Assembly: GCF_001421805.1 (NCBI RefSeq)
Contig: NZ_LMLC01000001.1
Coordinates: 868,001-932,000 of the forward strand
Direction of reading: 5' to 3'
Origin: Sphingomonas sp. Leaf34
Lineage (GTDB): Bacteria > Pseudomonadota > Alphaproteobacteria > Sphingomonadales > Sphingomonadaceae
DNA length: 64,000 nt
A program made the translations under genes and the position numbers. Below the pieces are notes generated by a model. It was given only the letters and a program-made list of their open reading frames with translations, was not told where the DNA came from and ran no database searches. Positions 51,082 through 64,000 of this stretch are shown piece by piece. Numbering within the stretch: the first letter of the stretch is position 1; each line of letters begins with the position of its first letter.

Positions 51082-51975
51082 TCACCCCGTCTGGTTTTTC
51101 GCCGCTGCCCCGTCGAGCTTGTCCTGGGTGCGGGTTTCGAAGTCGCCGGCGTCATGGCGTTCATGGAGTTGGCTGGCGGGATCGCCCATGATCCGGTTGA
51201 CCATCCGCCCGCGCTGGACCGCCGGCCGCGCGCCGACCAAGTCGGTCCAGCGCAGGACGTTCGTATAGTCTTTGACCTGAAGGAAGTCGGCGGCATCATA
51301 TACCTGGCCCGTCACAAGCGCGCCGTACCAAGGCCATACCGCCATGTCGGCGATCGAATAGTCGTCGCCACCGAGATACTGGCTTTCACCCAGCCGCCGA
51401 TCCAGCACGTCGAGCTGGCGTTTGACCTCCATCACGAAACGATCGATCGCATATTCGATCTTCACGGGTGCATAGGCATAGAAATGCCCGAAGCCGCCAC
51501 CCAGCATCGGCCCCGCCCCCATCTGCCAGAACAGCCACGACAGCACCTCGGCGCGCCTGGCGACATCGGTCGGAAGGAACGCGCCGAACTTCTCGGCGAG
51601 ATAGACGAGGATCGATCCCGATTCGAACACGCGGATCGGTTCAGCGCCGCTGCGGTCGACCAGCGCCGGGATTTTCGAGTTGGGATTGGCATCGACGAAG
51701 CCGCTGCCGAACTGGTCCCCGTCCATGATCTTGATGAGCCAGGCGTCGTATTCGGCGTCGGTATGACCGGCGGCGAGCAGCTCCTCGAGCATCACGGTCA
51801 CCTTCACGCCGTTGGGCGTTGCAAGCGAGTAGAGCTGGAGCGGGTGCTTGCCGACCGGCAGGTCCTTGTCGTGCGTGGCACCGGCGATCGGGCGGTTGAT
51901 GCTGGCGAACCGGCCTCCGCTCTGCTTGTCCCAGGTCCAGACCTTGGGCGGCGTATATTCGGCGGTCTCGGTCAT
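51082..51975 (-). CDS. yghU: YghU-like glutathione S-transferase / disulfide-bond oxidoreductase
   Basis: 297 aa, long N-terminus as in YghU. The thioredoxin-like domain has SLATPNGVKVTVMLEELLAAG, with Asn in TPNG replacing the catalytic Tyr/Ser of classic GSTs, plus the glutathione-binding KIPALVDRS and FESGSILVYLAEKFG; the helical C-terminal domain follows. YghU reduces disulfides with two bound glutathiones. GGAGACC precedes the ATG. Confidence 0.93.
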   Translation of the reverse strand: MTETAEYTPPKVWTWDKQSGGRFASINRPIAGATHDKDLPVGKHPLQLYSLATPNGVKVTVMLEELLAAGHTDAEYDAWLIKIMDGDQFGSGFVDANPNSKIPALVDRSGAEPIRVFESGSILVYLAEKFGAFLPTDVARRAEVLSWLFWQMGAGPMLGGGFGHFYAYAPVKIEYAIDRFVMEVKRQLDVLDRRLGESQYLGGDDYSIADMAVWPWYGALVTGQVYDAADFLQVKDYTNVLRWTDLVGARPAVQRGRMVNRIMGDPASQLHERHDAGDFETRTQDKLDGAAAKNQTG

Positions 51976-58564: not shown

Positions 58565-58939
58565 CTAGCTTTCCCGCCGCAGGAAAATCCACATCCCACC
58601 ATCGCTGGCCGACTGGATCTTCACCGTAAGTTCGCGGTCGCGGTCGTCGAAATCGCCGATATGCGTGAACTCGGCATTGAACGTACCCGCACTGACCGCG
58701 CGTTCGGCGGCGGATCGAAAACTCTCGGTGTTCATGCAGGGGGCAATCTGGGTGAAGAAGTTCAGGCCGATCCGGGGGCGTGCACCAAAACCGGAGAGGC
58801 GCGCCTCGGCTTCGCTGAACAGAACGACCGCCCCCTTGGGATCGAGCCGGATCGCGCCAAAGGGCAGCACATCGATCTCCTTGACCTCGAGCCGCTCGAC
58901 AGCCCGTGCGAGGTCCGGTTGATCGAAGCGGACGCTCAT
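58565..58939 (-). CDS. Photoactive yellow protein-like PAS protein
   Basis: 124 aa, the length of PYP (125). Match runs through the protein: LPFGAIRLDPKG, FSEAEARLSG, IGLNFFTQIAPC, AEFTHIGDFD, MWIFLRRE. Cys68 in the APC motif aligns with the chromophore-binding Cys69 of Halorhodospira PYP and Glu45 with Glu46. However Tyr42 is Phe41 and Arg52 is Phe51. PYP binds p-coumaric acid and cycles with blue light; whether this protein does so is not known, since related PAS proteins without photochemistry exist. Three bases after the hybrid kinase stop, hence one transcript. Tyrosine ammonia-lyase and coumarate ligase are not in this window. Confidence 0.8.
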   Translation of the reverse strand: MSVRFDQPDLARAVERLEVKEIDVLPFGAIRLDPKGAVVLFSEAEARLSGFGARPRIGLNFFTQIAPCMNTESFRSAAERAVSAGTFNAEFTHIGDFDDRDRELTVKIQSASDGGMWIFLRRES

Positions 58940-58942
58940 GGC

Positions 58943-61114
58943 CTATTGCCCCTCTGCAGGATCGGTCTCGTCAAAATTGACGACGGCGATCAAACTTGTG
59001 ACTTCGGCTCCGTCTTCGGAACAGGGGAGCAAAAGCCGTTCGAAAAAGGAGGTGTCATCCGATCCGAAGTCGAAACGCGCAAAGTCATAGGTGGGCTTTC
59101 GCGATCGCACGCAGCGCCGATACGCCCCTTCCTGCGTCATCTCGCTATCGTCGCCGGTGCCATCGATCCGCCACCACGTGAAATCGGTTTCGGCCCGCCG
59201 GCTAAGTTCTGCGCCGACCTGTACCAGTTCGAAGGTCATCGGCACGTACGTCTGATCGACCACGACCTCGGCGACGAAATCCCGTTCGTCACGCGTGATC
59301 GGCACGCGGTTTAGCGCCGGCAACGTCTCGCCCGATCGCTCGCCTCGCCACTGCGTGAGCACGCGGTTGAGGACAGCGGACTTGAACCGCGCGGCCATGC
59401 TATCGAGCGACGCATCACGCGCGTCGAGGCGTTGTGACCGTTCGACCATATCCAGCACGGCCTTTGACAGTTGCTCGGGGAGAAATGGCTTGAGCAGCAC
59501 GGCTTCGTGCGCGACGCCGGTGAGATTGAACTGGCCGCTAATGAACAGAATCGGCAGATTGGGCCGCACCCCGCGCGCGCTGGCGATGAATTTCACAGCG
59601 CCCGACCCGGCAACGCAATAGTCGATCACGATGAACGCGAGCGGCTCGCCGTCGTGCACCTTTGCCATGGCATCGGTCGCACTGACCGCAGGGACCACGC
59701 TGTACCCCAGGTCGACGAGCTGATCGGCGACGATGCTTCGGACCAGATCGTCGTCCTCGACCAGCAACACACGTCCGCCGCCGTGCGACCGCAACTCGAC
59801 CGCGGCGGCGTCGGGCTCCTGCGTCACCGCCGATGCCGCGACGGGCAGATACAGCGACACCGTCGTGCCGCGCCCGACGACGCTTGCCAAGCGCAAGGCA
59901 CCACCCGATTGCATCATCAGGCCATGGACCATGGCGAGGCCAAGGCCGGCTCCCTTGTCCGGCGCCTTGGTCGTGAAAAAGGGCTCGAGCGCACGCTGCA
60001 GCACCGGTGCAGGCATTCCGGACCCCGCGTCGACCACGTGGATCGCGACGCAGGCCATCTCGCCGAGTTCGCGCGGCTTGCGCGGGTCGCGCCCGCCAAT
60101 TTCCTCAAAATCGATACGCAGCGGGCCCCCCTCCCGCATCGCATCGCGCGCGTTGACGAGCAGGTTCGCGAGCGCGGTTTCCAACTGCCCGGGGTCGATC
60201 CTCACGGCGGGCATGCGATGGGCATCGCCGATCACGATGGCGATCTGCGGCCCCGCGAGACGGCGAAGCTCCGGCGCCAGGTCGACGAACACGGGCGCAA
60301 GATCGATCGTCCGCGCGACGACATTTTGCAGCCGCGCAAAGCTCATGAGCTTTTGCATCAGATGTGCGCCGCGTTCGGCGGCCACGGCGCCGTCACCCGC
60401 CAGCTTGAGGATCTGAGGATCCTCGGCGCGCTTCTGGATCAGCGCGAAACCGCCGGTGATCACGGCCAGGACATTGTTGAAGTTATGCGCGACGCTCGAC
60501 GTGAGCTGACCCAGCGCTTCGAGCTTCTGGCTTTGCAGCAGCGTCGCCTGAAGCGCCTCGCGGCGGTTCATCTCCTGGAGGAGCAGCGCGTTGGCCTGTC
60601 TCAACTCATGCGTGCGTTCGATCACCCGCTGTTCGAGCTCGGCGTAGCTGGCCGTCAGCGCATCCTGCGTTTCGCGATAGCGTGCCTCACTCCCGGCAAG
60701 CGCATCCTGCGTGCGTTCGAGATAGGCCTCGGCGGTAAAGGCGCGCCGGTTTCGATCGTCGATATCCACGCCGATCCCGATCCAATGATCCACGCGACGA
60801 TCGGCGCGCACCGGAACGCACCGGATGAGAAGCCAATAATATTTCCCGTCCGCGCCCCGGAGCCGATACTCGGTTTCATAGGGCTCTCCCGTCGCGATCG
60901 CCTGACGCCACGCCAGTTCTGCAGGTTCGCGATCGTCCTGGTGAATGGCAAACAGCCACGCGCTCCCCAACAGCGACGCATCGGTCAGCCCGGTAAATTC
61001 GCGAAAACGGCTGTTGTAGAAGATCGCTTCGCCATTGGCATTCGCGCAGAAGACCAGCGACGGCATAGCGTCTGCCAGCGCGGCGAATTCTCTGTTTATC
61101 GCGAACGCCGTCAC
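58943..61114 (-). CDS. Hybrid sensor histidine kinase: PAS - HisKA - HATPase - receiver - PAS-like
   Basis: 723 aa, no transmembrane helix, so cytoplasmic. PAS (about 8-125), coiled coil (about 130-200), HisKA with His210 (SSVAHNFNNVLAVIT), HATPase (about 300-425, NLLVNARDA, DAGSGM, GAGLGLAMVHG), receiver (about 447-560, phosphoacceptor Asp498 in VIDYC, Lys542), and a C-terminal PAS-like domain (about 600-720, WWRIDGTG). The GTG start at 61114 overlaps a short leader ORF. PYP-like gene follows 3 bp on. Output partner unknown; the receiver is attached, so a separate phosphotransfer protein may be used. Confidence 0.9.
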   Translation of the reverse strand: MTAFAINREFAALADAMPSLVFCANANGEAIFYNSRFREFTGLTDASLLGSAWLFAIHQDDREPAELAWRQAIATGEPYETEYRLRGADGKYYWLLIRCVPVRADRRVDHWIGIGVDIDDRNRRAFTAEAYLERTQDALAGSEARYRETQDALTASYAELEQRVIERTHELRQANALLLQEMNRREALQATLLQSQKLEALGQLTSSVAHNFNNVLAVITGGFALIQKRAEDPQILKLAGDGAVAAERGAHLMQKLMSFARLQNVVARTIDLAPVFVDLAPELRRLAGPQIAIVIGDAHRMPAVRIDPGQLETALANLLVNARDAMREGGPLRIDFEEIGGRDPRKPRELGEMACVAIHVVDAGSGMPAPVLQRALEPFFTTKAPDKGAGLGLAMVHGLMMQSGGALRLASVVGRGTTVSLYLPVAASAVTQEPDAAAVELRSHGGGRVLLVEDDDLVRSIVADQLVDLGYSVVPAVSATDAMAKVHDGEPLAFIVIDYCVAGSGAVKFIASARGVRPNLPILFISGQFNLTGVAHEAVLLKPFLPEQLSKAVLDMVERSQRLDARDASLDSMAARFKSAVLNRVLTQWRGERSGETLPALNRVPITRDERDFVAEVVVDQTYVPMTFELVQVGAELSRRAETDFTWWRIDGTGDDSEMTQEGAYRRCVRSRKPTYDFARFDFGSDDTSFFERLLLPCSEDGAEVTSLIAVVNFDETDPAEGQ

Positions 61115-61152
61115 GACCTCAGGCCAGGCGTAGTCGGCCGGAACTCCGCCAT
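61111..61152 (-). CDS. Short leader ORF overlapping the kinase start
   Basis: 13 codons (MAEFRPTTPGLRS) starting at ATG 61152, preceded by GAGGAGGG, the only strong Shine-Dalgarno here. Its TGA overlaps the kinase GTG (GTGA), which itself lacks a good Shine-Dalgarno. This would couple kinase translation to the leader. Confidence 0.5.
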   Translation of the reverse strand: MAEFRPTTPGLRS

Positions 61153-61200
61153 CGGACCCTCCTCGATTCGAGAATTACCTTAGAAAATGCTAATAGCCGG

Positions 61201-61241
61201 AGTTTTTCAAGTTCAGTATTGGTTTTTTTACTTGAAAAACT
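61201..61241. promoter_or_regulatory. 12-bp perfect inverted repeat in AT-rich region upstream of the kinase
   Basis: AGTTTTTCAAGT (61201-61212) and ACTTGAAAAACT (61230-61241) with a 17-base spacer containing a T7 run. On the minus strand the second arm carries TTGAAA, a possible -35. The surrounding 60 bases are the most AT-rich in the window. Likely an operator-promoter region for the kinase-PYP pair. Confidence 0.55.
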
Positions 61242-61726
61242 GCAAACATCTGTAAAGCGAGGCTTTCGTATAGTGGCAGCATTTCCCTTCGATGGCGAAG
61301 TCGGCGCCATATTCGGTGTGTCGGTCAAAGTCGGCGTTGCACGTACCCCGGTAGAGCGACGACTCGCCCGCTTTCATCACGATCGGCAAAACCGCGTGTT
61401 GCGGTTTCGGCACCGCCGCCCGCGAGACGCTGCCCGTTCCTATCATGCCGCAAGGAAAAGGGTCGCTTTTCAACGTACAATGACGCCACGCGCATCGGGC
61501 GTCGCGGAGTAGATTCCGCCATACGCCGTCCAGCAACCGCGCCGTCTTGCGGGTCCGATCGAGTGCGGCCGAGCGAATCTCCGCAACAACCGGCCAGTAA
61601 CAGAAGCATAGGAGATTGTCCGCTTGCTCCGAGACGCAAGCGGATAGCTACGCCCCAGGAGATCGCCACCGGGAAGACTCCGAATTACAGCCCGTCGCCC
61701 CGTCTTTGTAAGCGCAGCATTGCAAA
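61242..61726. other. Divergent gap between kinase promoter and AraC gene
   Basis: About 485 bp without a recognised gene. A minus-strand frame (61228-61536, 102 aa) has six cysteines in its product but no family likeness and no start signal; I leave it uncalled. GC is lower than in the neighbouring genes. Confidence 0.35.
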
Positions 61727-62671
61727 GTGGATCGCTTCTTGGGTTCCATCGCGCGGATGGATACCGTACCAAGCAAGAATGCAGCGGACCGCAATAAAGA
61801 CTCGGTTACGATGATGCAGATCGCCCACGACCTCAGCCTGGCGTTCGGTCGCGGTGCCGATGTGGCGCGTCCGCTGCGGCAATGGCGCGGCTTCTCGGCC
61901 AAGCACGTCGTGATCGGTGCGGAGTCCTATTCGTTCAAGCGTGTGGGCAATTCCCAGTACCTCGCCTTCCACGACATGATCGTCGAGGACAGCGAGGTTG
62001 CCATCGATGGTCTGGCGCCGGATCGCACGCGGGATTGGCGCCGTTCGGTGGCGTTCATCCCCTGGGGCCATGCGGCGCACGGCTGGGCGGCGCCTGCGCG
62101 CCGACGCAATACGTTCACGGCGCTCCATTTCCAGCCGGGGCTCGTCAGCGACGAGCTCGAGCGTCGCTACGCGGTTGCAACGCCGGCACCGCTCCTGTTC
62201 CTGAGGCCACCGCCGTTGCAGGCGGCACTTGGCCGGCTCGAATCGGTGTTGCTGACATCGCATGTCGATACGATGCTGGCGGAAACCGTGTGCCTGCTTG
62301 CGGTGCTCGAGGTCTTCGGCGTTCAGGCGGACCCGACCGGGGTCGGATTGTCGCGGCGGCATCTGAGACTGGTCGATGACTTTGTCGACGCGCGTCTCGC
62401 CGCAACGATCGGCGTGTCCGATCTGGCGCAACTCTGCGGACTGAGCCGGTTTCATTTCACCCGCGCCTTCAAGATGGCGACCGGCGCGTCGCCATACGCG
62501 CATGTGACCGCGACGCGCGTCGATCGCGCACGCGAGCTATTGGCGCAAACCGATCTCCGGATCGAGGCGATCGCAGGGCTAGTCGGCTTTCCGACGAGCG
62601 CACAGTTCAGGCGGGCGTTCCGCGCCAGGGTCGGCTGTTCGGCCTTGGAATACCGCCAATCGAGGAAGTGA
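61727..62671 (+). CDS. AraC-family transcriptional regulator
   Basis: 314 aa by the GTG at 61727. The C-terminal AraC helix-turn-helix pair is clear (about 225-312: VSDLAQLCGLSRFHFTRAFKMATGASPYAHVTATRVDRARELL; IAGLVGFPTSAQFRRAFRARVG). The N-terminal part is not a recognised ligand domain. ATG starts at 61757 and 61811 are alternatives; none has a strong Shine-Dalgarno. It sits between the kinase-PYP pair and the phytochrome, 13 bp before the latter, so it is likely cotranscribed with it. Confidence 0.88.
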   Translation: MDRFLGSIARMDTVPSKNAADRNKDSVTMMQIAHDLSLAFGRGADVARPLRQWRGFSAKHVVIGAESYSFKRVGNSQYLAFHDMIVEDSEVAIDGLAPDRTRDWRRSVAFIPWGHAAHGWAAPARRRNTFTALHFQPGLVSDELERRYAVATPAPLLFLRPPPLQAALGRLESVLLTSHVDTMLAETVCLLAVLEVFGVQADPTGVGLSRRHLRLVDDFVDARLAATIGVSDLAQLCGLSRFHFTRAFKMATGASPYAHVTATRVDRARELLAQTDLRIEAIAGLVGFPTSAQFRRAFRARVGCSALEYRQSRK

Positions 62672-62684
62672 GGACGCGTCGATC

Positions 62685-64000
62685 ATGTCTGACACTATCG
62701 ATCAGAGCATTCCCGATCTCACAATCTGCGATCGCGAGCCGATAACGCGGCTCGATCGGATCCAGTCTTTCGGGTTTCTGCTCGCGCTGTCGAACGACTG
62801 GGTCATCGCGCGCGCCTCGGCGAACGCCGCCGACATGCTCGGCACCGCGGCAGACCGGTTGATCGGCCAACCGCTCGACACGCTCGTCAGCGGCCAGGCG
62901 CTGCACGATATTCGCAACCGGATGTCGATCCTCCAGGCGACGTCGAGCGAGCGGCTCTACGATATCGGCCTGATCACGCCGAAGAAGCGCTTCGATCTCA
63001 GCCTGCATTTCAGCGGTGACCTGCTGATCCTCGAGGGCGAGCCCTCGCGGCCGCAGGACCGGATTGACGCCGCCTCGATGGTGCGTTCGATGATCGAGCG
63101 GCTCAGACGCACCACGACGGTCACCGACTTCCACCGCGACGCCGCGCGCCAGGTGCGCGCGATCACCGGATTCGAGCGGGTCATGATCTACCGGTTCGAT
63201 GACAATGGCGATGGTGACGTCATCGCGGAATCGACGCGGTCGAACACCGAAAGCTTTCTCGGCTTGCGGTATCCGGCGTCGGACATTCCGGTCCAGGCCC
63301 GGGCGCTCTACCTTGCCAACCCGTTCCGGATCATCCCCGACGTGCAGGCGCCGACGGTTCCCGTGTTGCCGGTGCGCGGCCAGCCGGATCAGGCGCTCGA
63401 CATGACGTACGCCGTCACGCGCGCGGTATCGCCGGTGCATATCGAGTATCTGACCAACATGGGGGTCGGCGCGTCGCTGTCGATATCGATCATCGTCGAA
63501 GGCCGGCTCTGGGGCCTGATCGCCTGTCACCATAGCGAAGCGCGCTGCCCCAGCTTCGTGATGCGCACCGCCGCCGAACTGTTCGGCCTCATGTATTCGA
63601 TGACGCTCGAGAGCCGGCTCCGCGGCAACACCGCGGTCGACGAACGCAATGCGCGTGCGCTCAGCGACCGGATGATGATGGCGATCGCCGGCGACGAAAC
63701 GCTGCTGACCAACGCGGCATGGATCCGCGATAACGTCGGCGGCATGATCCAATGCGACGGCGTGGCGGTCTTTCGGCCCGGCGCGGTGACCCTCAACGGC
63801 AGCACGCCACCAGAAGGCGACATCGCGACGATCGCCCGCTTTCTCGACACGACATCGCCGAGCCGCGTCTATGACACGAACGCCATCGCGGTGATCGATC
63901 CCGGTCTGGCGCAGTCCGCCGACCGCGCTGCGGGGATGCTGGCGATTCCCGTGTCACGGACGCCGCGCGACTACATCATGCTGTTCCGCCGCGAGCTGCT
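62685..64000 (+). CDS. bphP: Bacteriophytochrome (photosensory module; C-terminus beyond window)
   Basis: 438 codons are present, open to the end. PAS-GAF-PHY photosensory core: Cys15 in TICDREPI is the biliverdin-binding cysteine of bacteriophytochromes; PASDIP (Asp200) and VQARALYLANPFR in the GAF domain; VSPVHIEYLTNMGVGAS, GRLWGLIACHH. The IQPHG motif of many members is IQSFG here. The PHY region starts at about 325. It senses red/far-red light through biliverdin. The output module, probably a histidine kinase, is not visible. No heme oxygenase gene is in the window. Confidence 0.93.
   Translation, partial: MSDTIDQSIPDLTICDREPITRLDRIQSFGFLLALSNDWVIARASANAADMLGTAADRLIGQPLDTLVSGQALHDIRNRMSILQATSSERLYDIGLITPKKRFDLSLHFSGDLLILEGEPSRPQDRIDAASMVRSMIERLRRTTTVTDFHRDAARQVRAITGFERVMIYRFDDNGDGDVIAESTRSNTESFLGLRYPASDIPVQARALYLANPFRIIPDVQAPTVPVLPVRGQPDQALDMTYAVTRAVSPVHIEYLTNMGVGASLSISIIVEGRLWGLIACHHSEARCPSFVMRTAAELFGLMYSMTLESRLRGNTAVDERNARALSDRMMMAIAGDETLLTNAAWIRDNVGGMIQCDGVAVFRPGAVTLNGSTPPEGDIATIARFLDTTSPSRVYDTNAIAVIDPGLAQSADRAAGMLAIPVSRTPRDYIMLFRREL

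Follow-up and report, generated by a model that had tools for sequence, protein, structure and literature searches.

A photoactive yellow protein homologue with its own hybrid kinase beside an AraC-bacteriophytochrome gene pair in Sphingomonas sp. Leaf34

We analysed a stretch of 64,000 nucleotides from Sphingomonas sp. Leaf34 (the window; G000:C1:868001-932000 of a 3.94-Mb genome), at one end of which lie the genes for a homologue of photoactive yellow protein (PYP), a hybrid histidine kinase, an AraC-family regulator and a bacteriophytochrome. On balance, we favour the view that these genes represent two light-signalling units which are neighbours in this genome, namely a PYP that signals through a dedicated hybrid kinase, and a separate AraC-bacteriophytochrome pair. 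Homology, the coupling of kinase and PYP in all 12 distinct loci that carry them, largely matching trees and conserved residues have been shown. An earlier description made from the letters of this DNA alone (the sequence-only reading) had named the same four neighbouring genes and had taken PYP and phytochrome to be unfused. All of them were found where it had placed them, as four separate genes, and its family assignments proved right, with domain, profile and structure matches well beyond chance similarity.

The kinase-PYP pair

The PYP homologue (124 aa; 58565..58939, minus strand) matched the PYP domain of Ppr (1mzu) and wild-type H. halophila PYP in phmmer searches (E 4.3e-17 and 1.5e-15, respectively), and PYP structures ranked first (E 2e-8) when its AlphaFold model (mean pLDDT 78) was submitted to Foldseek. 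No Pfam family was matched at E 0.001. The NCBIfam model photo_yellow (TIGR02373) gave E 2.1e-23 and 82.7 bits, which is under its curated cut-off of 143.05 bits; PMC9664959 (cited throughout, like PMC12826048, for the part of its text that was available) puts the share of PYP homologues that this model recognises at about 20%. By the definition given in the same paper (homology together with a conserved Cys69), the window protein is a member of the PYP family. In H. halophila numbering, the chromophore Cys69 (Cys68 in the window protein) is kept, just as the sequence-only reading had claimed, together with Glu46 (Glu45) and Ser50 (Ser49). The position of Met100 is occupied by Asp99 and that of Phe96 by Gly95.

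Directly upstream, with 3 nt between its stop codon and the PYP start, is the gene of a 723-aa protein with the order PAS-kinase-receiver-PAS_5 (58943..61114, minus), identified as a hybrid histidine kinase by a His box, ATP-site motifs and a receiver with an acceptor Asp. Its PAS and HATPase were recognised by Pfam. The receiver (residues 449-553; 59456..59770, minus) reached 26.5 bits, under the Pfam cut-off of 30.2, with the phospho-acceptor Asp and the Lys present. The C-terminal tail (58946..59452, minus) has no Pfam match in this kinase, and of the five homologous tails that were scanned that of L047 alone exceeded the PAS_5 threshold; the predicted model of the tail has a PAS fold and, as modelled, this domain is a divergent PAS_5. 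The kinase core, the receiver and the PAS_5-like tail are common to the 12 PYP-linked kinases, and the N-terminal PAS part (residues about 9-123 in the window protein; 60746..61090, minus) varies between homologues.

The coupling of this PYP to the PAS-kinase-receiver-PAS protein, also claimed in the sequence-only reading, was borne out across bacteria. In all 12 distinct loci (three genus genomes, ten named loci, two of which repeat G022 and G074, and G883) the kinase gene is located directly upstream of the PYP gene on the same strand, and, with the start codons taken, the two genes overlap or are separated by at most 10 nt in every case. The hosts are mostly Sphingomonas, besides a Rubellimicrobium metagenome-assembled genome (MAG), MAGs of Acetobacteraceae, another alphaproteobacterium and a member of the Burkholderiales. 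This type of PYP was present in three of the 151 genus genomes (the window's own, G022 and G074) and in two of the 385 class genomes (the window's own and G883), and the only strong match in the samples of the family (397 genomes) and the phylum (398) was the window's own, G022 and G074 being outside both samples. A profile of the PAS_5 tail gave E <1e-62 in exactly the three genus genomes carrying this PYP; its matches in 25 further ones were weak, none better than E 2e-6. As a control, nine loci (L081-L089) whose PYPs are of other types had no match to the tail.

In a tree of 34 of the 37 prepared rows (the fused PYPs L074, L075 and L079 were left out, and no clade B reference was included), the 12 kinase-linked PYPs constitute one side of a branch with a long stem and a support of 100/100. 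Well-supported groups are common to the kinase and PYP trees. Throughout the 12 proteins Cys69, Glu46, Ala67, Pro68 and Phe62 are kept and Phe96 and Met100 are missing, and Phe42 is present in three, including that of the window. We conclude that the kinase and the PYP are a true, inherited unit, rare and scattered among bacteria.

A further 16 genus genomes gave weak PYP matches and G022 a second one; these were considered as members of this clade and rejected. Ten of them, read in the right frame, resemble clade C of PMC9664959 as presented in the available text. The nine clade-C-like rows of our tree, which consist of at most eight of these ten matches plus L174 and L042, keep Met100 and have lost Phe92, Phe96 and Trp119. 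G883 carries, in addition to a separate kinase-PYP gene pair, a PAS-PAS-HisKA-HATPase-PYP fusion (L081:7920-9995), whose PYP is C-terminal, so that the order is that of the gene pair.

The surroundings of the pair vary. KaiB genes occur just upstream of it in two Acetobacteraceae MAGs (L045:1-869 and L049:132-2618), accompanied in L045 by the end of a KaiC gene and in L049, which has two KaiB genes, by a PAS-kinase-receiver gene. Three Sphingomonas loci (L033:7960-18291, L042:319-6357 and L043:273-6357) contain two PYPs of different clades, the second of which is clade-C-like; within about 8 kb, they flank a gene for a crtI-family phytoene desaturase and an FAD oxidoreductase. The L033 locus also includes GGDEF, EAL and pCL-type genes, the apparent start of the same GGDEF protein is visible in L042, and a GGDEF gene is found downstream of the pair in L044. 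No such partner was noticed in the stretches examined of L034/L050, L041, L047 and L080, in which not every gene was scanned. The pair is therefore often near light- or clock-related genes, yet has no constant partner.

The AraC-bacteriophytochrome pair

The AraC-family regulator (314 aa; 61727..62671, plus; HTH_18, Pfam E 3e-20) is divergent from the kinase, with 612 bp (61115..61726, no strand) between the two start codons, and its stop codon precedes the phytochrome start by 13 nt. The phytochrome gene crosses the end of the window (62685..64000 within it, plus; its full extent, 62685-65267 in window numbering, corresponds to L009:8685-11267). The 860-aa product has the order PAS_2-GAF-PHY-HWE kinase-receiver, with the N-terminal Cys before GAF that marks a bacteriophytochrome; it is itself a hybrid HWE kinase with a receiver, which adds to the sequence-only reading. 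A simple scan gave no promoter-like match in the 612-bp stretch, the promoter and terminator scan of the locus yielded nothing informative, and the plasmid search returned eight records, every one of <60% identity.

Phytochrome matches of E 1e-60 or better were found in 113 of the 151 genus genomes, and 50 matches of E 1.7e-150 or better in 48 of them. The motif read-out covered loci with plus-strand matches. Among the 30 best of these 50 close matches, AraC directly precedes the phytochrome in three, i.e. the window's own, G022 and G053. In G053 the kinase-PYP pair is absent at the search threshold. G022 carries AraC-phytochrome on contig C34 and kinase-PYP on C57, and the gene divergent from its AraC encodes a heme oxygenase; G138, another close phytochrome locus, has neither AraC nor heme oxygenase in its flank. 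AraC-phytochrome thus looks like a separate unit, carried by relatives without kinase-PYP beside it.

The phytochrome of G099 is 84% identical to that of the window. The AraC gene before it is a remnant with both ends present and the middle gone (L150:9923-10193), and the GST gene equivalent to 51082-51975 of the window directly adjoins this remnant, which implies that the segment from 52 to 61.7 kb, including kinase-PYP, was either inserted here or lost there. A serine-hydrolase-like gene adjoins the PYP gene in G074 and, at 81% identity, GST-AraC remnant-phytochrome in G099, and was considered as evidence of an ancestral link. It was rejected as proof because it is a single gene; the window has the GST gene and not the hydrolase. 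A second bacteriophytochrome of the window genome (contig C6, L148:9649-11841; 730 aa) showed no receiver, and the surrounding 20 kb gave no match to heme oxygenase.

Biliverdin supply is accounted for by a heme oxygenase gene at G000:C1:457982-458473 (E 4.8e-41 with a genus profile), which is not beside the phytochrome. The absence of this enzyme from the window genome, suggested by the lack of a PF01126 match, was rejected, since the genus profile found one. When tried on four heme oxygenases of sphingomonads, PF01126 missed one, and because a gene resembling heme oxygenase next to a phytochrome of a sphingomonad (L101:4061-4600) escapes that model, absences based on PF01126 are unsafe in this genus.

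Proposed mechanism and alternatives

For the first unit we infer light absorption by the PYP, its binding to the kinase, the place of binding, the direction of control and the output. The single-domain PYP and its dedicated hybrid kinase, a cytoplasmic protein, would be translated together, and a coumaroyl thioester on Cys69 would let the PYP absorb blue light. Loss of Met100 slows the recovery of H. halophila PYP; because both Met100 and Phe96 are absent, slow recovery is predicted for this protein. The PYP may then bind the kinase, probably at the conserved receiver plus PAS_5 tail, and shift its kinase or phosphatase activity, with the phosphate presumably passing on to a partner encoded elsewhere. 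In the second unit, AraC-bacteriophytochrome, the phytochrome would act as a hybrid HWE kinase for red/far-red light, with AraC as the regulator linked to it.

Several points weigh against this proposal. Of Tyr42 and Glu46, the two residues that hydrogen-bond the chromophore in PYP, the window protein keeps Glu46 and has Phe42 (its Phe41) in place of Tyr42. The window genome gave no match to the aromatic ammonia-lyase model PF00221, which matches in 5 of 14 control genomes, and no match of the pCL ligase type, only partial AMP-binding matches of up to 32% identity; the same pCL query produced full-length matches of 42-43% in G701 and G022, and a pCL-type gene lies near the clade-C-like PYP of G022. 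The window kinase and PYP are both on long branches and are placed differently in the two trees, the placement in the PYP tree being unsupported. The place of PYP binding is a guess from conservation. Moreover, the PYP-linked kinase of the Burkholderiales locus (L047:3374-5989) is devoid of His, N-box and G-box motifs, while its receiver Asp and PAS_5 tail are kept (the receiver Lys is Arg); given this loss of the His and ATP-site motifs, control of the kinase by PYP is not universal.

The first two of these points also speak for a different role, which we consider unlikely: the PYP homologue may be no light sensor, with Cys69 engaged in another adduct or redox role and the protein serving the kinase as a subunit that responds to a ligand or to redox state. 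The available text of PMC9664959 offers a precedent, as the PYP domains of methylobacterial Ppr show chromophore loss. The five residues kept in all 12 kinase-linked PYPs argue otherwise; Y42F is a natural variant present in about 9% of PYPs (PMC9664959), H. halophila PYP tolerates the exchange (PMC9664959, PMC12826048), and TAL is missing from most pyp operons (PMC12826048). The chromophore may also be supplied by other means, for example through uptake of plant coumarate from the surroundings and use of a different CoA ligase. The reserve of the sequence-only reading about the photoactivity of this protein was well judged.

The same reading had also suggested a blue plus red/far-red signalling unit, and had named a conserved neighbourhood in relatives as a check. 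The kinase-PYP part of the neighbourhood is conserved, as described above, but the four-gene set is not: an AraC-phytochrome pair of the window's kind adjoins kinase-PYP in none of the 11 other loci. A phytochrome gene of any kind is near the pair in two of the 12 loci, the window and L046, and in the latter it is a PAS-GAF-PHY gene without output domain (L046:6409-8145), convergent with the PYP gene at a distance of 42 nt and lacking an AraC match. No phytochrome was found in the other ten (in L041 and L045 only about 1.5 kb on one side was covered). Since phytochromes accompany only these two pairs and are differently arranged, a joint unit is not supported as conserved.

It is improbable that the free PYP cooperates with the hybrid kinase and the bacteriophytochrome in the manner of an unfused Ppr, e.g. 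via cross-phosphorylation between receivers or through the PYP changing phytochrome recovery, an effect reported for Ppr in the title of one reference. The adjacency in the window and the case of L046 are its best arguments: across the 11 other loci, 0.03 to 0.15 phytochrome neighbours would be expected (assuming 1-3 phytochrome genes per 4.3 Mb and flanks of 6-10 kb), and one was seen. In addition, two of the three genus genomes with kinase-PYP (the window's own and G022) have AraC-phytochrome, a co-occurrence with a hypergeometric estimate of 0.001-0.002, which assumes that there is no AraC at the unexamined phytochrome loci and ignores relatedness. Besides the ten loci without a phytochrome in the stretches examined, the separate contigs of the two pairs in G022, the lack of a close orthologue of the window phytochrome in G074 (best E 5e-72) and the absence of phytochromes from all 113 pyp operons in the available text of PMC12826048 stand against it. 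An extension of this idea, which we regard as very unlikely, would make the whole lineage a modular split Ppr, in which the receiver-PAS_5 tail is the docking site of a slow PYP, the N-terminal inputs of the kinase are exchangeable and, where a phytochrome is at hand (the window and L046), the kinase weighs blue against red/far-red light.

The chances are equally slim that AraC governs the transcription units on both sides of the divergent layout, making kinase-PYP and phytochrome co-regulated while mechanistically separate (which would be compatible with two light-signalling units), as the 612 bp between the divergent start codons might suggest: in G022 it is the heme oxygenase gene, not kinase-PYP, that diverges from AraC, and the similarity of G022 to the window begins with the AraC gene and does not reach further upstream.

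Relation to known systems

The bacteriophytochrome has the domain order and chromophore motifs of known BphPs with an HWE kinase and a receiver. It differs from the usual BphP loci of the genus in having AraC directly upstream, whereas in 23 of 25 others examined (L095-L119) the flank upstream contains a heme-oxygenase match. Ppr and Ppd fusions likewise bring modules of PYP, phytochrome and kinase into proximity; Ppr combines PYP and phytochrome in one polypeptide, whereas the window genes are unfused, their phytochrome has its own kinase and receiver, and relatives do not conserve the link. In the same genus, G003 encodes a true Ppr, fusing PYP, phytochrome and kinase (L035:9011-12291), and a heme oxygenase gene comes next.

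With the PYP family (PAS_PYP of Xing, Gumerov and Zhulin 2022; TIGR02373) the window protein shares length, fold and the Cys69, Glu46, Ala67-Pro68, Phe62, Phe92 and Trp119 positions. All 12 kinase-linked PYPs have Ser43, Gly96, Phe98 and Asp or Ser at position 100, in contrast to Asn43, Phe96, Tyr98 and Met100 in eight typical PYPs. Among the papers listed by a literature search pairing Sphingomonas with PYP, none was on the present system. The kinase-pyp operon as such is of an already known kind, since histidine kinases adjoin clade A PYPs (PMC9664959) and, among 113 predicted pyp operons, HisKA was reported in 8 and HATPase_c in 9, with a preference for the upstream position (PMC12826048). 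Our lineage is a variant of these operons with the kinase gene directly before pyp, which differs in that one type of kinase, with a receiver and a PAS_5 tail, is present in 12 of 12 loci. Neither the constant pairing with a kinase-receiver-PAS_5 protein nor the residue signature is described in the available parts of PMC12826048 and PMC9664959.

Signal transfer from PYP is named as an important gap in PMC12826048. A PYP clade that was always found with one type of kinase offers a defined two-protein system for this question, together with natural variants for comparison: proteins with Tyr42 or Phe42, and the L047 pair, which combines a defunct kinase core with a receiver, tail and PYP that have been retained.

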